Below, in pieces: positions 3,361 to 61,367 of a stretch of DNA of 64,000 nucleotides. Within the stretch, counting starts at the first letter, position 1, and each line of letters opens with the position of its first letter. The notes beneath the pieces were generated by a model. That model had not been told where the DNA came from, did not search any database, and worked only from the letters and a program-made list of their open reading frames with translations. The DNA lies in contig NZ_CP058334.1 in assembly GCF_013391085.1 (NCBI RefSeq), positions 806,001-870,000 of the forward strand. Direction: 5' to 3'. The stretch comes from Natronomonas halophila. GTDB taxonomy: Archaea > Halobacteriota > Halobacteria > Halobacteriales > Haloarculaceae. Position numbers and translations under genes: made by a program.

Positions 3361-3797
3361 TGGTCTCTGAAGAGTCGGTAGCTGGTGCCGCCGGTAGCGA
3401 CGACTTTCTCCTCGCCGTCGTGCAGCGTCGTGACCTCGCTTTCGGTAAAGCCCATCGAGCCGCCCGCGCGGACGACTTCGGCTTCGACCCGCAGGTCGTT
3501 GCGGGCGGGCCGGACGTAGCGGACGTTGAGGTCCGTCGTCGTCAGCATCGCGGACTCGGGGTTCTCGAACGTCGACCGGAGCGCAAAGCCCGAGGCGGTG
3601 TCGATGACCGTCGCAGTGACGCCGCCGTGGACCGTCCCCGAGGCGATGTTGGCGAACTTGTCGTCGAAGGGCAATTCGAAGACGACGTGGCCGGGTTCGA
3701 CCGTCTCGATGTCGAGGTTCAGCCACTGGAAGAGGCCGTGCTCCTGAAGTGCGGCCTCCAGCACGTCGTCGTGGTCGGCGGCACCCTCGCTACTCAT
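3357..3797 (-). CDS. PaaI-family acyl-CoA thioesterase
   Basis: This 146-residue hot-dog protein carries GTVHGGVTATVIDTASG, containing the HGG motif (57-59) and the acidic residue at 66 typical of PaaI-type thioesterases. It likely hydrolyses acyl- or hydroxyacyl-CoA thioesters, freeing CoA when intermediates stall. It lies between the HAD-ECH fusion (gap of 6 nt) and the MaoC gene (4-nt overlap), so it belongs to the same transcript. Confidence 0.85.
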   Translation of the reverse strand: MSSEGAADHDDVLEAALQEHGLFQWLNLDIETVEPGHVVFELPFDDKFANIASGTVHGGVTATVIDTASGFALRSTFENPESAMLTTTDLNVRYVRPARNDLRVEAEVVRAGGSMGFTESEVTTLHDGEEKVVATGGTSYRLFRDQ

Positions 3798-3803
3798 CGT
3801 GGC

Positions 3804-5759
3804 TCACTTCCCTTCGAATTCGGGGTCGCGGTCCTCCATGAACGCCGAGGCGCCTTCCATCATGTCGTCGGTCGACAGCAGGAGGCCGAAGGCCTGCGAT
3901 TCGAGTTCGAGGCCGGCGGAGATGTCCTGGTCGCGGCCCTCGTTCATCACCTTCTTGGCCTTCCGGAGGGCGATGGGCGCGCCGTTGACGAGGTCATCGA
4001 GGAACTCCTCGACGGTCTCGTCGAACTCGTCCTCGGAGACGGCGCGGTTGATAAGGCCCCAGTCCTCGGCGGTTTCAGCGTCGATGCGCTCGCCGCGGAA
4101 GACGAGTTCCTTCGCGCGGGCCTCGGTCAGCATGCGGATGGCGCGCTGGGTGCCGCCGCCGCCCGGCAGCAGGCCGAGATTGATCTCGGGGAAGCCGAAC
4201 GACGAATCCTCGGTGGCGATACGGAGGTCACACGCCAGCGCGAGTTCGTGGCCGCCGCCGAGACAGAAGCCGTCGATTTTGGCCAGCGTGGGTCGCGGGA
4301 AGTCGTTGACCGTCTGGAAGACGGGCGTGACCTCGACCTCGTGGGGGTCGATACCGGAGAAGCCGGTGATGTCCGCGCCGGCACAGAACGCGCGGTCGCC
4401 CGCGCCTTCGAAGGTGACTGCGCGAACCTCGTCGAGGTCGGCGTTCTCGAGGACGTGGACGATTTCGTCCATCATGTCGTCGTTCAGCGCGTTCATGCGG
4501 GCCTGCCGGTCGAGTTCGACTTCGAGCAGGCCGTCGTCGTTCAGGTCGACGTTGATGGTCGTGTAATCACGCTCGCTGTCCTCGCCGTACTCGTAGAAGC
4601 CCTCGCCGGCGTCCTCGCCGGTCTTGCCGTCCGCGACGAGGTCTTCGAGGTAGTCGGCGGGTTCGTAGCGCTCGGCACCCGTCTCCTCGTGGAGGGTTTC
4701 GAGTTTGTCGAGCACTTCGTCGAGGCCGATCTTGTCGGCGCGGCGGCAGGGGCCTTCGGGGAAGCCGGCACCGAGACGGAGACCGGTGTCGATGGCGTCG
4801 GGCGTCGCGACGTCGTTGCCGATGAGTTTTGCAGCCTCGTTGATGATGCGTGCCTCGACGCGGAGCCAATCGAAGTCATCGGAGACGTCCTCGGGGCCGT
4901 AATCGGCACCCTCGCCGTCCTCGTAGTCGTAGTAGCCCTTGCCGGTCTTCTGGCCGAGTTCCTCGGCTTCGACCTTCTCCTCGACGATGGGCGGCACGGG
5001 CTGTCCGGCTTCCTTGCGGACGTGATAGCCGATGTCGATGCCCGTCAGGTCGCCGAGTTCGAACGGTCCCATCGGGTAGCCGCGCTCGTGGACGAGCGTG
5101 GCGTCGGCCTCCCGAATCGTGGCCTCGCCGTTGCTGACCATCCAGCCGGCCTCGTCGCCGAACGGGCCGAGCACGGAGTTGACGACGAACCCGCGAACGT
5201 CCTTCCGGACGTAAATGGGCGTCTTGTCGATGGATTCGACGAAGTCGTAGGTTGTCTCGGCCGTCTCGTCGGAGGTTTCCTCGCCGTAGATGACCTCGAC
5301 GAGGTCCATCTTCACCGGCGGGTTGAAGAAGTGCATCCCGACGACCTGTTCCGGTCGGTCGGTCGCCTCCGCGATGTCCGTGATGGGAAGCGAGGAGGTG
5401 TTGGAGGCGAGGATGGCGTCCTCGGGAGTGTACTCGTCGAGGTCCGAGAAGATGTCGTGTTTGATGTCCATCTCCTCGGGCGCGGCCTCGATGACGAGGT
5501 CGACGTCCTCGACGGCCGCTTCGAGGTCCGTCGTCGTGTCGATGCGGTCGAGGACCTCGGCGGGCGCCTCGTCGATGCGGCCCTTCTCGGCGAGTTTTTC
5601 GAGGGACCACGAGATGTCCTCGTAGCCGTCCTCGACGAACTCCTCTTTGATGTCACGCATCGTGACGTCATAGCCCGCGAGCGCGACGACTTCCGTAATA
5701 CCGTGTCCCATGTTGCCCGCGCCGAGTACGGCGACGCGGTCGATGGCATCGAGAGTCAT
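3804..5759 (-). CDS. 3-hydroxyacyl-CoA dehydrogenase / enoyl-CoA hydratase fusion
   Basis: A 651-residue bifunctional beta-oxidation enzyme. Residues 1-385 form the NAD-dependent 3-hydroxyacyl-CoA dehydrogenase, with the Rossmann motif GAGNMG at 13-18, HFFNPP in the middle and two C-terminal helical units. Residues from about 390 form a crotonase domain with FCAGADI and PEINLGLLPGGGGTQR. The order (dehydrogenase first) is the reverse of bacterial FadB and is the arrangement known from archaeal crotonyl-CoA hydratase/3-hydroxybutyryl-CoA dehydrogenases. It leads the operon with the thioesterase and MaoC genes. A CCTTAAGG element about 30 nt upstream may be its TATA box. Confidence 0.9.
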   Translation of the reverse strand: MTLDAIDRVAVLGAGNMGHGITEVVALAGYDVTMRDIKEEFVEDGYEDISWSLEKLAEKGRIDEAPAEVLDRIDTTTDLEAAVEDVDLVIEAAPEEMDIKHDIFSDLDEYTPEDAILASNTSSLPITDIAEATDRPEQVVGMHFFNPPVKMDLVEVIYGEETSDETAETTYDFVESIDKTPIYVRKDVRGFVVNSVLGPFGDEAGWMVSNGEATIREADATLVHERGYPMGPFELGDLTGIDIGYHVRKEAGQPVPPIVEEKVEAEELGQKTGKGYYDYEDGEGADYGPEDVSDDFDWLRVEARIINEAAKLIGNDVATPDAIDTGLRLGAGFPEGPCRRADKIGLDEVLDKLETLHEETGAERYEPADYLEDLVADGKTGEDAGEGFYEYGEDSERDYTTINVDLNDDGLLEVELDRQARMNALNDDMMDEIVHVLENADLDEVRAVTFEGAGDRAFCAGADITGFSGIDPHEVEVTPVFQTVNDFPRPTLAKIDGFCLGGGHELALACDLRIATEDSSFGFPEINLGLLPGGGGTQRAIRMLTEARAKELVFRGERIDAETAEDWGLINRAVSEDEFDETVEEFLDDLVNGAPIALRKAKKVMNEGRDQDISAGLELESQAFGLLLSTDDMMEGASAFMEDRDPEFEGK

Positions 5760-44616: not shown

Positions 44617-44646
44617 GGTGGAATGACTTGCGTGTATCACAAGCGG

Positions 44647-45372
44647 ATGTCTCTGACCGAACTCATCGCGGGGGTCGAGGAACACGAGAAGACGCTGACC
44701 GTCTTCAACGGTGACGACGCCGCCGTCGCCGCCCTCCGCGAGCAATTCCACGACCGGAACCTCTCGGTGACCGCCGAGCGGACGCCGAGCGGCAAACCCA
44801 ACGCCTTCGCCGTGCTGTCGGAGGACGGCGAGTTCGTCACCGCCGCCAGCCTCGACGAGATTCGCGGCCCCGAATCCGACGAGAACGACCCGGACTTCGC
44901 CGAGGAGGCCTACCGGCCCATCCTCGACCATCTCGACGAGACGATGTTCACCTCCTACGATATCGGACAGATGGTCGCCGCCTCCCGGGAAATCGAGGAC
45001 CGTGCGTGGCGACTCGGCAAGGGGTCGCTCCACTCGGGGTTCCAGAAACTCTCCATCCTCGAAGACCAGATGGACATCTACGAACAGTTGGCCGAAAAGG
45101 GCACCCTCGACGTCTACGCCTACGCTGTCCCCGATACCGACGTGCCGAAACACGACAGCGACCTCACGATTCACGTCGAACGCACCGACGAAATCGAGCG
45201 GTCGTGGTTCGTCGTCTACGACGGCGCCGGTATCGACGTCAACAAGTGCGCCCTGCTGGCCGAAGAGCGTGAACCCCGGTCGTTCTACGGCTTCTGGACG
45301 TACGACCCGGATACGGTCGACTGGATTATCGACCACCTCGAATCCACCTACGGCCTCGTCGAATCCCAGTAG
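44647..45372 (+). CDS. DICT sensory domain protein
   Basis: A 241-residue protein resembling the DICT sensory domain, named from diguanylate cyclases and two-component systems. LTELIAGVEEHEKTLTVFNG opens the fold and SYDIGQMVAASREIEDRAWR is the conserved middle helix. No output domain is fused, so it would signal by protein contact. The family is linked to light or redox signalling, but ligand and partner are unknown. It is divergent from korA. A longer frame starting at 44623 is possible but would begin upstream of the expected transcript start. Confidence 0.75.
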   Translation: MSLTELIAGVEEHEKTLTVFNGDDAAVAALREQFHDRNLSVTAERTPSGKPNAFAVLSEDGEFVTAASLDEIRGPESDENDPDFAEEAYRPILDHLDETMFTSYDIGQMVAASREIEDRAWRLGKGSLHSGFQKLSILEDQMDIYEQLAEKGTLDVYAYAVPDTDVPKHDSDLTIHVERTDEIERSWFVVYDGAGIDVNKCALLAEEREPRSFYGFWTYDPDTVDWIIDHLESTYGLVESQ

Positions 45373-45505
45373 GTCGACCGACGAATCGGACCGAGCGCTT
45401 TCCGGCGGCCCATCCCGGACCCCGTCGTCTCGTTCGACTCGCCCGCGTCGGGACGTTTCCTCGATAGCCGCGCACGCGAGAAAGTAAAAATGCTTTTCCG
45501 GGAGG

Positions 45506-45523
45506 TGATTGAACGTTCAATCA
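45506..45523. promoter_or_regulatory. Perfect 18-bp palindrome, operator of the NEW3/RND operon
   Basis: TGATTGAACGTTCAATCA is perfectly self-complementary and ends 2 nt before the ATG at 45526. A TATA-like GTAAAAAT is at 45484-45491, so the predicted transcription start falls inside the palindrome and a bound dimer would block initiation. Sites like this are typical of TetR-family repressors controlling exporters. No regulator gene is next to it. Confidence 0.6.
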
Positions 45524-45525
45524 AC

Positions 45526-47295
45526 ATGGACCGGACGGAGTCGACCGATGGAGAAAGAACTAGTGATGCGACCTGTGCTGCGAACGCGGGTGACGACAGC
45601 AAGAACGACCAGCGCGGCGGCACCGGAGGGAACGGATACGGCGGGCGTATCCTCGATGGGATCGGGACGCGCTCTATCGGCTCCCGAATCGCGGTCGTGG
45701 CGCTCGTCTCGCTGCTCCTCGTTTCCGCGGTCGCTCCGTTTTTCGCCGGCACCGCGGCCGCGAACGTCACCGGCGAACCGGACATCTCGCTCACCATCGC
45801 CGACAACCGCGTCGACGCCGGCGAAAGCACGAGCCTCGAAGTCCGCGTCGTCAACCGCGGCGAACTCGAATCCGGTAGCGACATCGGCAACGTCCAGGCC
45901 GAACGGCGCGCCACGACGGCCCGCGGCCTGACGCTCGAGCCGAAGAACAACGGCCCGATTACCGTCCACACCAACACGCAGGCCATCGGGAACGTCCCCG
46001 ACGGCGAGGCGGTTCCGGCCCGTCTCGACATCACCGTCGCAGAGGACGCCGACCCCGGCACCTACCGCATCCCCGTCGAAGTCAGTTACAAATACAGCCC
46101 CTTCGTCTCCGAGCGGGCCAGCAACTCCCAGCGAAACGAGGTTCGCAGTCGGACCAAGCACGTCCGGGTCGTCGTCGACGAGGAGGGCCACTTCGAGGTC
46201 ACCGGCGTGGAATCCTCCGCCGAACCCGGCAGCGACGGCCGCGTTTCGGTAACCCTCAACCACACCGGCGACCGCACGCTGGACGAGACCACCGTCGAGT
46301 TCCAGTCCCGGAGTTCCGGCCTCGCCTTCGGGGCCAGCGACCGAACGGCAGCGTATCTCGGCACCGTCGAACCCGGCGACCAGCGAACCGTTCAGGTCGA
46401 AGCCTCCTTCGCCGAGGACGCCCGCACGCGGGAGTACCCCGTCGACCTCACGATGAACTACGACGAGCGCGGCAGTGACGGCACCGGCGAGCGGGACGTC
46501 ATCGGCGTCGCACCCGACGACGACCAGACGTTCGACTTCGAGAACGTCAGTTCCACCCTCCGAGTCGGACAGGACGGCACGGTCCGCGGCACCGTCGTCA
46601 ACGAGGGCCCCAACGAGGCCCGCAACGTCGTCGTGACCCTCGTACCGCCCAGCGAGAACGTCCGGGTCCTCGAACCCGAGGTCGCACTGGGCGAACTGGA
46701 GGCCGGCGAAGAGGTCCCGGTGGCCTTCGACGTCGAAGTCTCCAGTGCCGCCCGGGAGGGGCCCCGACAGTTCACCCTCCAGACGGACTACGAGAACCTC
46801 GACGGCGACACCCGGAGCGCCGACGACGTCCGCTTCCGACAGACCGTCGAACAACGGCGGGACGTCTTCACGGTCGAACCCGTCAACGCCACCCTCACGG
46901 CCGGTGGCTCGGACCGCGTCGTCCTCGCGGTGACGAACAACGACGACGAGACGGTCACCGACGTCTCGGCGAAGGTCTTCGCCTCCCAACCGCTGTCGAT
47001 GAGCGACGACGAGGCGTTCATCGACGAACTCGAACCCGGCGAAACCGCGCGAATCCCCTTCCGGGTCAGCGCCGCCGACAACGCGATGGAGAAGGCCTAC
47101 CCGATATCCATCGACTTCCAGTACGTCGATGAATCCGGCGAGACGCGCCTGACCGACAGCTATCGGGTTCCGGTCGACGTCGAGGAGCAAAGCGGCGGCC
47201 TCTTCGGCTCTATCGGCCCCGCTATTCCCCCCGCGCTGGCCGCCCTCGGCCTCGCACCGCTTGCCCCCGTCGCCCTCCGCTACCGGCGCCGATAG
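45526..47295 (+). CDS. NEW3/COG1361-type surface protein linked to RND exporter
   Basis: A 589-residue protein. A 50-residue hydrophilic N-terminus precedes one membrane segment (IAVVALVSLLLVSAVAPFFA). At least three extracytoplasmic beta-sandwich repeats of about 100 residues follow, of the NEW3/CARDB type (for example RVDAGESTSLEVRVVNRGEL and LRVGQDGTVRGTVVNEGPNE). A C-terminal hydrophobic anchor and RYRRR complete it. Both ends are thus membrane-anchored with the repeats outside. The stop codon directly abuts the RND gene start, so this is probably its accessory subunit. The ATG at 45490 is rejected because it precedes the operator. Confidence 0.8.
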   Translation: MDRTESTDGERTSDATCAANAGDDSKNDQRGGTGGNGYGGRILDGIGTRSIGSRIAVVALVSLLLVSAVAPFFAGTAAANVTGEPDISLTIADNRVDAGESTSLEVRVVNRGELESGSDIGNVQAERRATTARGLTLEPKNNGPITVHTNTQAIGNVPDGEAVPARLDITVAEDADPGTYRIPVEVSYKYSPFVSERASNSQRNEVRSRTKHVRVVVDEEGHFEVTGVESSAEPGSDGRVSVTLNHTGDRTLDETTVEFQSRSSGLAFGASDRTAAYLGTVEPGDQRTVQVEASFAEDARTREYPVDLTMNYDERGSDGTGERDVIGVAPDDDQTFDFENVSSTLRVGQDGTVRGTVVNEGPNEARNVVVTLVPPSENVRVLEPEVALGELEAGEEVPVAFDVEVSSAAREGPRQFTLQTDYENLDGDTRSADDVRFRQTVEQRRDVFTVEPVNATLTAGGSDRVVLAVTNNDDETVTDVSAKVFASQPLSMSDDEAFIDELEPGETARIPFRVSAADNAMEKAYPISIDFQYVDESGETRLTDSYRVPVDVEEQSGGLFGSIGPAIPPALAALGLAPLAPVALRYRRR

Positions 47296-49761
47296 ATGGA
47301 CGTCAACTACCAACGCTACGTCGACCGGGTCAACACCCTCATCACCGAGCGGCCGGGGACCGTCATCCTCGTCTTCCTGCTGGTGACCGCCGGGTTCGCC
47401 GCCGGCCTCGGCAGCGTCGAAACCGCGGCGGGCACCCAGCAATTCGCCCAGAACGTCCCCGCCGAGCAGGCCTTTCAGGAGGTCAACCGCCAGTTCACCC
47501 CCACCTTTACCGCCGATACCGGGAGCACACAACTGATTCAGAGCGGCGAGAACGTGCTGGGTCGAACCGAACTCCTCCGGATGCTCCGGGTTCAGGAGGA
47601 ACTGGCCGACCGGCCGGCGATGCGCGTATCCAGTACCTCCAGTGCCGCCAGCATCGTCGCCCAGCAACTGGACCCCTCGGCGACGACGCCGGAAGAACAG
47701 CAGCAGGCCATCGAGGGCGCGACCGACACGGAAATCCGCGAAGCCGTCCGGCAGGCCGACGAGCAGAACCCACGGTTTTCGGGCCTGCTATCGAACGACT
47801 TCAACCGCGGGTCCGCGAGCGCTTCGGCGACCATCGGCGTCGTCACCCACCAACTCCCGGCCGGCCTCGAAGCCAGTTCCGGGCAGGGCGGCGCGAGCCC
47901 GCTGACCCCGATTCAGGAGCGGGCCCAGTACGTCACCGAGAGCGCGGGCGGCGACATCCGCGTGTTCGGGTCCGGCATCACCGCCGCCGAGTTCACGATG
48001 GTCATCACCGACACGCTCCGTATCGTCGTCCCCGCCGCACTCCTGCTGATTACGTTCTTCCTGATGGTCGCCTATCGGGACCTCGCGGACCTGCTTTTGG
48101 GCGTCGTTTCCCTCCTGATGGCGCTGGTCTGGACGTTCGGCTTCATGGGCCTGGCCGGCATTCCGTTCAGTCAGGTGCTGATAGCGGTGCCGCCCATGCT
48201 GCTTGCGGTCGGCATCGACTTCGGCATCCACGCGGTCAACCGCTATCGTGAGGAACGCGACGAAGGCTACGACATCACCGAGGGGATGCGCCAGGCCAAC
48301 GACCAGGTGCTCGTCGCCTTCTTCATCGTCACCGGGACGACGGTCATCGGCTTTGCCGCCAACCTGACCAGCGACCTCGTTCCAATCCGTGAGTTCGGTA
48401 TCGTCGCCGCCATCGGCATCGTCTTCACGTTCCTCATCTTCGGTATCTTCCTCCCGGCCGCGAAGGTGAAACTGGACCACGCCCGCGTCAAATATCCGAT
48501 TCCGACCTTCTCGACGGCGCCGATGGGGTCGGGCGAATCCCGACTCTCGGACGTACACGAGGTCGGCATCACCATCGCCCGGGCGGCCCCGTTCGCCTTC
48601 GTCATCCTGTTGCTCGTCGGCAGCGGGTTCGCGGGCGTCTACGCGACGGGCATCGACACTACCTTCGAAAACGAGGACTTCCTGCCGCCCGAGGAACCCC
48701 CGGAGTATTACGAGTACGCGCCCGAACCGCTCGAACCCGGCGACTACAGCGTCACGCAAAACATCAACTTCCTGCAGGACAACTTCCAGTCCGGACAGGA
48801 CGACACCGTCACCGTCTACGTCGAGGGGCCAATGGAGGCGCCACACGCCCTGAAGTCGATTCATCGCGCCGGCGACGACCCGCCCGATAGTTTCGTCCGC
48901 GAGGGCGGCCGCGCCGACGAAACCAGCCTCGTGACGGTGATTCAGGACCACGCCGAGCGCGACCCCGAGTTCCGCCGACTGGTCGACCGCAACGACATCG
49001 ACGCCGACGGCGTCCCCGACCGCAACCTCGGGGAAATTTACGACTACCTGCTCGACTCGCCGGCCAGCGGCCAGACGCGGCAGTACCTCACCGAGGACCG
49101 CCGGGCGACCCGGGTCGTCTACTCCGTCGAGTCCGACGCCTCCCAACAGGAGATTACGGCCGACGCACGGACCGTCGCCGACAGACACCGATACGAGGCC
49201 ACCGCGACCGGCAACACCGTCGTCTTCCAGGCCATCTCCGACCTCATCCTCCAGTCGGCGCTGGTGAGCCTCACCGTCGCGCTTACGGGGACCGCCGTCT
49301 TCCTCGTCTTCATCTACTGGCTGTTGCTGGGGCGGGCGAGTCTCGGCATCGCCAACGTGATTCCCGTCGCCATTACCGTCACGCTCATCGCCGCCTCGAT
49401 GCGCGCGCTCGGCATCGCGTTCAACGCCTTCACCGCGACCATCCTCGCGATTACCATCGGCCTCGGTATCGACTACTCGGTTCACATCACCCACCGCTTT
49501 GCCGACGAGTACGAAAAGCGGGGTCAGGAGGTCTACGCGGCGCTCGAACCCACGATTCTGGGGACCGGCGGCGCCCTCGCGGGCAGCATGCTCACGACCG
49601 TCTTCGGCATCGGCGTGCTCGTCCTCTCGCTGTTTCCTGCAATCGGCCAGTTCGGCTTCTTGACCGCGCTGAGCGTCTTCTACTCGTATCTGGCGTCGAT
49701 TTTCGTCCTCCCGTCGGTACTGGTCGGATGGGCGTGGGCGACCGACCGCATCGCGGGCTGA
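47296..49761 (+). CDS. RND-superfamily (MMPL/SSD-type) exporter
   Basis: An 821-residue transporter with twelve predicted membrane helices in two halves. Each half has a large extracytoplasmic domain after the first helix. The SSD-type motifs GIDFGIHAVNRYREE and GIDYSVHITHRFADEYE occur at equivalent places in the halves. RND/MMPL proteins export lipids, hydrophobic compounds or drugs using ion gradients. The gene follows the NEW3-protein gene with no gap and shares its palindromic operator. The cargo is unknown; a membrane-lipid or surface component is plausible. Confidence 0.88.
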   Translation: MDVNYQRYVDRVNTLITERPGTVILVFLLVTAGFAAGLGSVETAAGTQQFAQNVPAEQAFQEVNRQFTPTFTADTGSTQLIQSGENVLGRTELLRMLRVQEELADRPAMRVSSTSSAASIVAQQLDPSATTPEEQQQAIEGATDTEIREAVRQADEQNPRFSGLLSNDFNRGSASASATIGVVTHQLPAGLEASSGQGGASPLTPIQERAQYVTESAGGDIRVFGSGITAAEFTMVITDTLRIVVPAALLLITFFLMVAYRDLADLLLGVVSLLMALVWTFGFMGLAGIPFSQVLIAVPPMLLAVGIDFGIHAVNRYREERDEGYDITEGMRQANDQVLVAFFIVTGTTVIGFAANLTSDLVPIREFGIVAAIGIVFTFLIFGIFLPAAKVKLDHARVKYPIPTFSTAPMGSGESRLSDVHEVGITIARAAPFAFVILLLVGSGFAGVYATGIDTTFENEDFLPPEEPPEYYEYAPEPLEPGDYSVTQNINFLQDNFQSGQDDTVTVYVEGPMEAPHALKSIHRAGDDPPDSFVREGGRADETSLVTVIQDHAERDPEFRRLVDRNDIDADGVPDRNLGEIYDYLLDSPASGQTRQYLTEDRRATRVVYSVESDASQQEITADARTVADRHRYEATATGNTVVFQAISDLILQSALVSLTVALTGTAVFLVFIYWLLLGRASLGIANVIPVAITVTLIAASMRALGIAFNAFTATILAITIGLGIDYSVHITHRFADEYEKRGQEVYAALEPTILGTGGALAGSMLTTVFGIGVLVLSLFPAIGQFGFLTALSVFYSYLASIFVLPSVLVGWAWATDRIAG

Positions 49762-49842: not shown

Positions 49843-50400
49843 GTGGCATCGATAGACGAGTGGCTGGCCGACGCGACGGGGAGTTACATGCTTCAGGCAC
49901 CGGCGCTGTCGGGCGCGCCGCTGTTTCTCGGCCGGGTCGGCAAACGACGCGCCGGCGAGACGCTGTTCGTGACCGCGACGCGGAGCGCCGGGCGATTGCA
50001 CCCCGAAATCCGGTCGGCGATGACCGAGGTCATCGACTGTGCTCCCGGCAACTCCGACAACCAACCCGACGTGGGGTCACCGGCCGACCTCACCGGCATC
50101 TCGATGCCCCTCTCGGAGTTCATGAAACGGAGCGACGCCCCGGCCGTCGCCTTCGATTCCGCGTCGACGCTACTCTTCTACACCGAGGAAGCCGCCGTCT
50201 TCCGGTTTTTAAGCGTCCTCACGGCTCACCTTCGCCGATACGACGGCCTCGGCCTGTTCGTCCTCACGCCCGCGGCCCACGACGAACAGACGGTCCGCAC
50301 GCTCGCGCAGGTGTTCGACGGCCGCATCGAGTTCGATGGAGAGGATGACCGCATCCGCGTCGACGCACCCGGCGCTCCTGAGGGCTGGCAGGCCCGCTAG
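49843..50400 (+). CDS. RecA-like signalling domain protein without P-loop (DUF7504-like)
   Basis: A 185-residue soluble protein starting with GTG. The second half (VAFDSASTLLFYTEEAAVFR followed by FLSVLTAHLRRYDGLGLFVL) matches the Walker B half of KaiC-like proteins seen in haloarchaea (DUF7504-like). No Walker A motif exists, so it cannot be an active ATPase. It belongs to the same broad fold as the protein at 38331. Its 3' end overlaps the convergent lactonase-like gene by 4 nt. Function unknown. Confidence 0.55.
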   Translation: MASIDEWLADATGSYMLQAPALSGAPLFLGRVGKRRAGETLFVTATRSAGRLHPEIRSAMTEVIDCAPGNSDNQPDVGSPADLTGISMPLSEFMKRSDAPAVAFDSASTLLFYTEEAAVFRFLSVLTAHLRRYDGLGLFVLTPAAHDEQTVRTLAQVFDGRIEFDGEDDRIRVDAPGAPEGWQAR

Positions 50401-59711: not shown

Positions 59712-61367
59712 TCACCACTCCCAGTCGGTTACGACGCTGTCACGGCCGACGAACGTGATTTTTCTGGCGACCAACAATCCACCAGCCCCGGCGACGGCCA
59801 CCGCGCCGAGCAGGCCGGCCGGGAGTGGCCGGTCCGTCGCATCCGGTTTCGACCAGTCTTCCTCGAAGACGTCCGCGTAGTAGGCCGCCACCGCCTCACC
59901 CTCCAGTGCAACGACGACTTCGCGGTTTTCCGTTCGCGCGGTCGGCCCCCAGTTGAGACTCCCCAGGAGGACCGTCTCGTCGACGACGACGCCTTTCGTG
60001 TGAATCTTCTCGTAGCCGCGTGCCTCGTCGACGCGGGCCTGCAGGTCCCAGCCCTCCGCTTTCGCCCGTCGGTTGAGCCACGAGACGAGGGCCGCGTTGT
60101 CCTCCTCGGCGTACCACGCACCCGAGAGATGGATGCGGACGGTAACACCGCGGTCGGCGGCCCGAAGCACGGCCCGCAGGAGACGCTCGTTGCGGCCGTC
60201 GATACGCATCTGCTGGACGAGGACCCGCTCGTCGGCGGTATCGATTCTGTCGACCATCCCGTCGGCAGCGTTGTCGGGTGCCACCAGTACCGTCGCCGAA
60301 TCGACCGGCAGTTCCTCGGGCGGATGCCGCGACTCGAACTCACCGAGGGCGGGGTTGGCCTCGGCGAAATCACGGCCTGCGCGATATTCCTCCCACGGCG
60401 TCGCCGCTCGCCAGCGCCAATCGGCACCGTGGAGGTCCGCAAGCGACGCCGCTGCCTCGCCGTTATCGAGGATGACGCCCCATCCACGACTCGACATGCC
60501 GCCGGTGCCCGCGGGCTTGAAGTTCTCCGTGAGCACGAGCGCGCGGTCGTCGACGACCGCGTATTTCGGGTGGTGATGTTCGTAGCAAGTATGTGGCCCC
60601 GACAGCAGTCGGACCGAAACTCCCGCCTCAGTGAGGCGGTCGAGTTGGCGCTGCTGGCGGACCGTCATCCCGCCGACCGGCGACCCATCGAGCAGCACGC
60701 GAACCGCGGCACCGTTTTCGTGGGCCTCGACAAGCGCGTCGGTTACCCGTGCGGAGGTGAGCGTGTAACCGGCAAGGAGGAGGCGCTCGTCCGCGGCCGC
60801 GAGCGTCTCGACAGTCACGTTGTCGCCATCCGGGAGCACGAACGCCGTCGCTGTCCCGCCAGCGGTTCGGACCGGTTCGAACGTCGTCGCACCGACCGGC
60901 CGCCAGCGGCCGGCCTCGAAGTCCCGAACCCGCGATTCCGGCGCGTCCCGGTACTGTGCGCTGTCGATGGTCCGGTTTCCGGCACGGAGTACGAGTCGGT
61001 CGCCGCCGTTCGCTAGCAGGAGCCGGCCGCCGAGCGGCGCGACCGCGTGGTCAGTGTGCCGGCGCGCTGCTGAGGGGTCCATTGCGAAAGCGACCGTCCC
61101 CTCGACTGTCCGGTTCGGCAAGCGGGCCGTCGTTTTGCCGTCCGTCAGCGTCCAGCCGGTCGTGTTCGTCGGGTCGGGAAAGCGGACGGTGACGAACTCG
61201 CCGGGGTCCTCGCGGGCAACCGGGGATGGATACGCCGAGACGAGCGTCGCATTCGAATCTTCGTGCTTCGGGGTCGTGCCGTTCGGCGCTCCAGCAGCGT
61301 GGCCGACGCCGACGCTACAGACCAGCAGTACGATGACGAACGCGAGCGCGGCGCGACGGACGAACAC
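59712..61367 (-). CDS. Exported phospholipase D-like protein with N-terminal beta domain
   Basis: This 551-residue protein has a signal peptide (FVIVLLVCSVGVGHAAG) and a beta-sandwich of about 110 residues resembling lamin-tail domains (GEFVTVRFPDPTNTTGWTLT). Two PLD half-sites follow: HHPKYAVVDDRAL near residue 265 and IHTKGVVVDETVLLGSLNWG near residue 475. A membrane helix sits near the C-terminus (LLGAVAVAGAGGLLVA). The HxK residues form a two-lobed phosphodiesterase site outside the cell. Substrates could be phospholipids or extracellular DNA. Confidence 0.85.
   Translation of the reverse strand: MFVRRAALAFVIVLLVCSVGVGHAAGAPNGTTPKHEDSNATLVSAYPSPVAREDPGEFVTVRFPDPTNTTGWTLTDGKTTARLPNRTVEGTVAFAMDPSAARRHTDHAVAPLGGRLLLANGGDRLVLRAGNRTIDSAQYRDAPESRVRDFEAGRWRPVGATTFEPVRTAGGTATAFVLPDGDNVTVETLAAADERLLLAGYTLTSARVTDALVEAHENGAAVRVLLDGSPVGGMTVRQQRQLDRLTEAGVSVRLLSGPHTCYEHHHPKYAVVDDRALVLTENFKPAGTGGMSSRGWGVILDNGEAAASLADLHGADWRWRAATPWEEYRAGRDFAEANPALGEFESRHPPEELPVDSATVLVAPDNAADGMVDRIDTADERVLVQQMRIDGRNERLLRAVLRAADRGVTVRIHLSGAWYAEEDNAALVSWLNRRAKAEGWDLQARVDEARGYEKIHTKGVVVDETVLLGSLNWGPTARTENREVVVALEGEAVAAYYADVFEEDWSKPDATDRPLPAGLLGAVAVAGAGGLLVARKITFVGRDSVVTDWEW

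Follow-up and report, generated by a model that had tools for sequence, protein, structure and literature searches.

The window, by which we mean the whole 64,000-nucleotide stretch of Natronomonas halophila DNA that was analysed, spans C1:806001-870000 of a one-contig genome of 3.21 Mb (labelled G000) and carries an exporter operon in which a NEW3/CARDB (COG1361-like) gene is followed by an RND/MMPL gene, the two coding frames abutting at 47295/47296 (Table 1). A DICT-domain gene lies upstream, and the exporter pair is followed by a DUF7504 gene and then by a metallo-beta-lactamase gene on the opposite strand. Orthologues of the window RND protein occur in 141 of 146 family genomes; the NEW3 protein as query gave no match in 84,980 genomes, probably due to fast divergence of this protein. 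An in-frame ATG at 45490 was considered as the start of the first gene and is less likely than the ATG at 45526, which we prefer because the genes of relatives start directly behind their own palindromes. An earlier note on this DNA had stated that no repressor is encoded next to the operon, and the immediate neighbours indeed include no TetR or other regulator gene. The DICT gene has only its DICT sensory domain, with no DNA-binding domain found, and the nearest TetR_N gene of the genome is located at C1:880256, outside the window.

Table 1. Features of the exporter locus, in window coordinates.
Feature	Position	Strand	Basis
DICT-domain gene, syntenic upstream neighbour	44623..45372	+	Pfam DICT 4.4e-16; synteny
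TATA-like TAAAAAT, putative core promoter	45485..45491	+	inferred by eye only
Perfect palindrome TGATTGAACGTTCAATCA, predicted operator	45506..45523	.	sequence read directly; predicted BetI-type TetR site
NEW3/CARDB (COG1361-like) gene, first of exporter operon	45526..47295	+	Pfam NPCBM_assoc 1.3e-16
RND/MMPL exporter gene	47296..49761	+	Pfam MMPL 1.6e-36
DUF7504 gene, third gene in synteny, perhaps co-transcribed	49843..50400	+	Pfam DUF7504 3.6e-23; synteny

The sequence TGATTGAACGTTCAATCA is a perfect palindrome of 18 bp that ends 2 nt upstream of the ATG at 45526, exactly in the sequence and at the place reported before. Judging by eye from the TATA-like element, transcription would be expected to start at about the centre of the palindrome. 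A full-length Shine-Dalgarno-like motif (GGAGGTGAT, 45501-45509) overlaps its left half, but we do not consider this motif to be the real function of the region: it ends 16 nt before the start codon, a distance beyond that of a standard ribosome site, and it would lie outside the transcript if transcription begins within the palindrome. The palindromic character of 45506-45523 is not significant by itself, given that a first-order Markov model of the window composition predicts 0.7 perfect palindromes of 18 bp or longer per window and 3 are seen. The site gains its significance from a copy at the promoter of a distant TetR gene. Even when up to 3 mismatches are allowed, TGATTGAACGTTCAATCA is the sole match within the window, where shuffling predicts 0.02 matches. 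Perfect palindromes of at least 20 bp are rarer (only 0.13 expected per window), and two others were seen: CATCAGATTCCCGCGGGAATCTGATG, of 26 bp, at 1724-1749 between a gene end at 1664 and the next gene, with another hairpin behind it (ATCAGACCGCTTCGCGGTCTGAT, at about 1755-1777), and the GC-rich CGCGGTCGTCGACGACCGCG, of 20 bp, at 60542-60561.

The earlier note had proposed scanning the genome for a TetR-family gene preceded by the same site, and such a gene was found. The near copy TGATTGAATGTTCAATCA at C1:2349689-2349706 is the only other genomic site with at most 1 mismatch and stands 21 bp ahead of the start codon of the TetR gene C1:2349728-2350321, between this gene and a divergently oriented second COG1361-RND operon. 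This TetR, about 1.5 Mb from the window operon, is the only matching one in the genome. Its site, its distance and its neighbouring operon each lend independent support to the earlier suggestions that the palindrome is a TetR-type operator, that its repressor is encoded elsewhere, and that more than one exporter may be controlled; two would be expected from the sites. We disregarded a match at C1:2933209 that has 3 mismatches and falls within an open reading frame. The genome contains three RND/MMPL operons and a further weak match, and the third RND operon has no site of the TGATTGAACGTTCAATCA type. A MATE-family exporter gene (L016:1069-2511) sits just past the second RND operon and is convergent to it.

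The protein encoded at C1:2349728-2350321 matches TetR_N (PF00440, 39.9 bits against a cut-off of 24) and has a BetI-type C-terminal domain (PF13977, 47 bits against 27); its best NCBIfam match is BetI itself at 41.5 bits, far under the cut-off of 201.3. Among solved structures, the TetR-like PDB 3crj is the nearest in sequence (E = 5e-31); the entry is named "Transcription regulator", and we take it to be a haloarchaeal protein. The genome has four TetR_N genes in total, and the recognition helix KSTSLVYHHY of the distant TetR differs from those of the other three. Two of these others are preceded by TGACTGACTAGTCAGTCA-like palindromes that are different from TGATTGAACGTTCAATCA and nearly identical to each other (TTACTGACTAGTCAGTCA at C1:1345590-1345607 and CGACTGACTAGTCAGTCA at C1:1582434-1582451), and these two TetRs may share targets. 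The TGATTGAATGTTCAATCA-type site at the distant TetR is kept in three other members of the genus (G117, G118, and G131).

A degenerate version of the site, TGAHTGAAYRTTCADTCA, occurs in 32 of 146 family genomes, mostly beside TetR genes, and operator type appears to track recognition-helix type across the family. We examined the 300 bp upstream of 78 TetRs, counting as a site any match at 14 or more of the 16 informative positions. Such a site of the operator class accompanies 32 of 51 TetRs with the helix KSxSLxY compared to 3 of 27 others (Fisher p = 1e-5, which is optimistic since the TetR sequences are related); for the remaining 19 of the 51, no near site was found within these 300 bp. 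TetRs of other helix types adjoin other palindromes, for example, CSKSLLHYHFD with TGACTGACTAGTCAGTCA. In genus g11 (G075, G078, G079, G081, and G082), COG1361-RND operons with RND proteins 63-65% identical to the one in the window carry TGACTGAACGTTCAATCA, the end of which lies exactly 3 nt in front of the COG1361 start codon, together with further copies of the operator class and an adjacent divergent TetR with matching recognition helix. Away from the listed TetRs, sites of this class precede a MATE exporter gene (G134), unrelated genes, and an ABC ATPase gene in G057 that has a TetR on its other side. Such a site also lies immediately upstream of a cytochrome P450 gene in G042 (L166) and G043 (L167). 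A TGATTGAATAGTCAGTCA-like site recurs in G117 (L173), G118 (L134), and G131 (L135). In the first of these it precedes a gene for a MATE exporter, possibly a second target there for the same class of TetR.

Members of the genus share the gene order around the exporter operon (DICT, exporter pair, DUF7504, metallo-beta-lactamase). The RND proteins of the syntenic operons form one clade (100/100), and those of G117, G118, and G131 group with that of N. halophila more weakly (82/76). No TGATTGAA-type palindrome precedes the orthologous operon in G117, G118, G119, G124, G126, G127, G131, or G133, so that TGATTGAACGTTCAATCA lacks the footprinting support that close orthologues would usually give. 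The earlier note had named just this absence from related species as evidence against its reading. The absence is literally true in the genus, but it leaves the reading intact because most of these operons have different operators and regulators.

Most of these same-genus operons indeed have another inverted repeat and/or another TetR at the same spot. G118 and G131 encode a TetR of another helix type between the DICT and COG1361 genes and have TACCTACCGAACGGTAGGTA 4 nt before the ATG. In G117 (G117:C1:1301500-1313000, around 3780-3890) the local TetR is deleted down to its first codons and TACCTACCGAACGGTAGGTA is intact before the COG1361 gene; this orphan operator has no other copy in the G117 genome, and TACCTACC sites were found nowhere else in the genus. 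As judged by eye from the translation, G119, G124, and G133 have a third, divergent TetR type in the gap; other inverted repeats are present there at least in G119 and G133, and the gap of G127, read in part, is similar. The N. halophila operon has no local TetR and a TGATTGAA-type site in place of the operators of its relatives. The differing operators and local TetRs of these orthologues imply that the operon has changed its repressor. The N. halophila site may be either new or an old one that was retained: the g11 operons have the same class and the nearest relatives do not. On balance we favour repressor replacement: a single genus shows three unrelated operator/TetR arrangements at the same syntenic operon, and in N. 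halophila, which has no local TetR, the TetR of the paralogous pump would have gained control through an operator at the same position and thereby coupled two formerly separate pumps.

It is very likely that the palindrome is the operator of the trans-encoded BetI-type TetR C1:2349728-2350321 and that this protein controls both its own neighbour pump and the window pump. The common operator, its position, the association of helix and operator, and the lack of a local regulator are evident from the sequences, and from them we infer binding, repression, ligand release, and co-induction as follows. The dimeric TetR would bind TGATTGAATGTTCAATCA in its own promoter region, facing the divergent COG1361-RND operon, and would also occupy TGATTGAACGTTCAATCA in trans. 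There, between the TATA-like box and the ATG, the site would cover the predicted transcription start, and a dimer sitting on it would keep the archaeal initiation complex from assembling or from escaping. A ligand, probably the exported compound or a mimic of it, would then free the TetR and turn on both pumps together. The genome has no further good site, and a small regulon of two exporters rather than a larger set is therefore to be expected on sequence grounds.

Three other explanations can be weighed against this proposal. The site could be a relic of a lost local TetR of the same class, with the distant TetR no longer in control in practice and the operon constitutive. G117 offers a precedent in its deleted TetR and retained TACCTACCGAACGGTAGGTA, and in the g11 operons a local TetR does accompany this operator class. 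Decay would be expected of a relic, however, and 45506-45523 is a perfect palindrome; moreover, the same genome encodes a TetR with matching helix and a near-identical site, so that binding would be expected unless specificity has drifted. We thus regard a relic as unlikely. Palindromes of such length are bound by several helix-turn-helix families, and our survey covered part of the regulators in this genome, so that the site might instead be bound by another of the four TetRs or by a dimeric protein from outside the TetR family. Yet the three other TetRs differ in their helices, two of them have a different palindrome in front, and the sole other copy of the site adjoins the BetI-type TetR, making a different regulator quite improbable.

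The least plausible explanation is a chance palindrome with no regulatory role, to which we give hardly any credence. The count of perfect palindromes in the window is compatible with it, but the sequence recurs in a TetR promoter of the same genome and, at the matching position ahead of the start codon, in the homologous g11 operons, and a second match in 64 kb would itself be rare even when 3 mismatches are allowed. We thus retain control in trans by the BetI-type TetR as the preferred reading.

The proposed control resembles the TetR/TetA paradigm in having a helix-turn-helix TetR, a palindromic promoter operator, and a pump as target. Divergent genes with a TetR regulator less than 200 bp away are usually repressed by it (PMC3511530), and the arrangement at C1:2349.7 kb is classically divergent; unlike in the paradigm, the window operon, at a distance of 1.5 Mb, would be reached in trans as a second target, and the promoters are of the archaeal TBP/TFB kind. 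TetRs are commonly encoded beside their targets but need not be (PMC6790063), and this arrangement is absent at the window operon and present at the second one. Multi-target TetR regulators are known, including some with efflux systems among several targets of one TetR (reviewed in PMC6790063), whereas only two genomic sites are predicted here and both are at COG1361-RND operons. The choline-responsive repressor BetI (TIGR03384) shares the BetI-type C-terminal domain, and the box of one alphaproteobacterial BetI, ATTGACG*CGTCAAT (PMC12442346), has the same outer half-site ATTGA. In contrast to BetI, the distant TetR scores under the NCBIfam cut-off and its predicted targets are RND pumps and not betaine genes. 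Our literature searches found no relevant paper on the operator TTGAACGTTCAA and no characterised case of haloarchaeal TetR/RND control or of a TetR acting on archaeal COG1361-RND pumps.

This type of switch is ordinary and well known, and what is instructive is the rewiring history of the operon, a clear case of repressor change. For N. halophila, an anonymous palindrome becomes a testable regulon of two pumps with a candidate repressor gene in an archaeon. The genus provides a natural series for the study of repressor change, comprising operons with another TetR and another operator, with the TetR deleted and the operator kept, with a third TetR type, and with a TetR predicted to act in trans. 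Beyond the genus, the operator code predicts targets of BetI-type haloarchaeal TetRs, among them RND, MATE, ABC, and P450 genes in other species.
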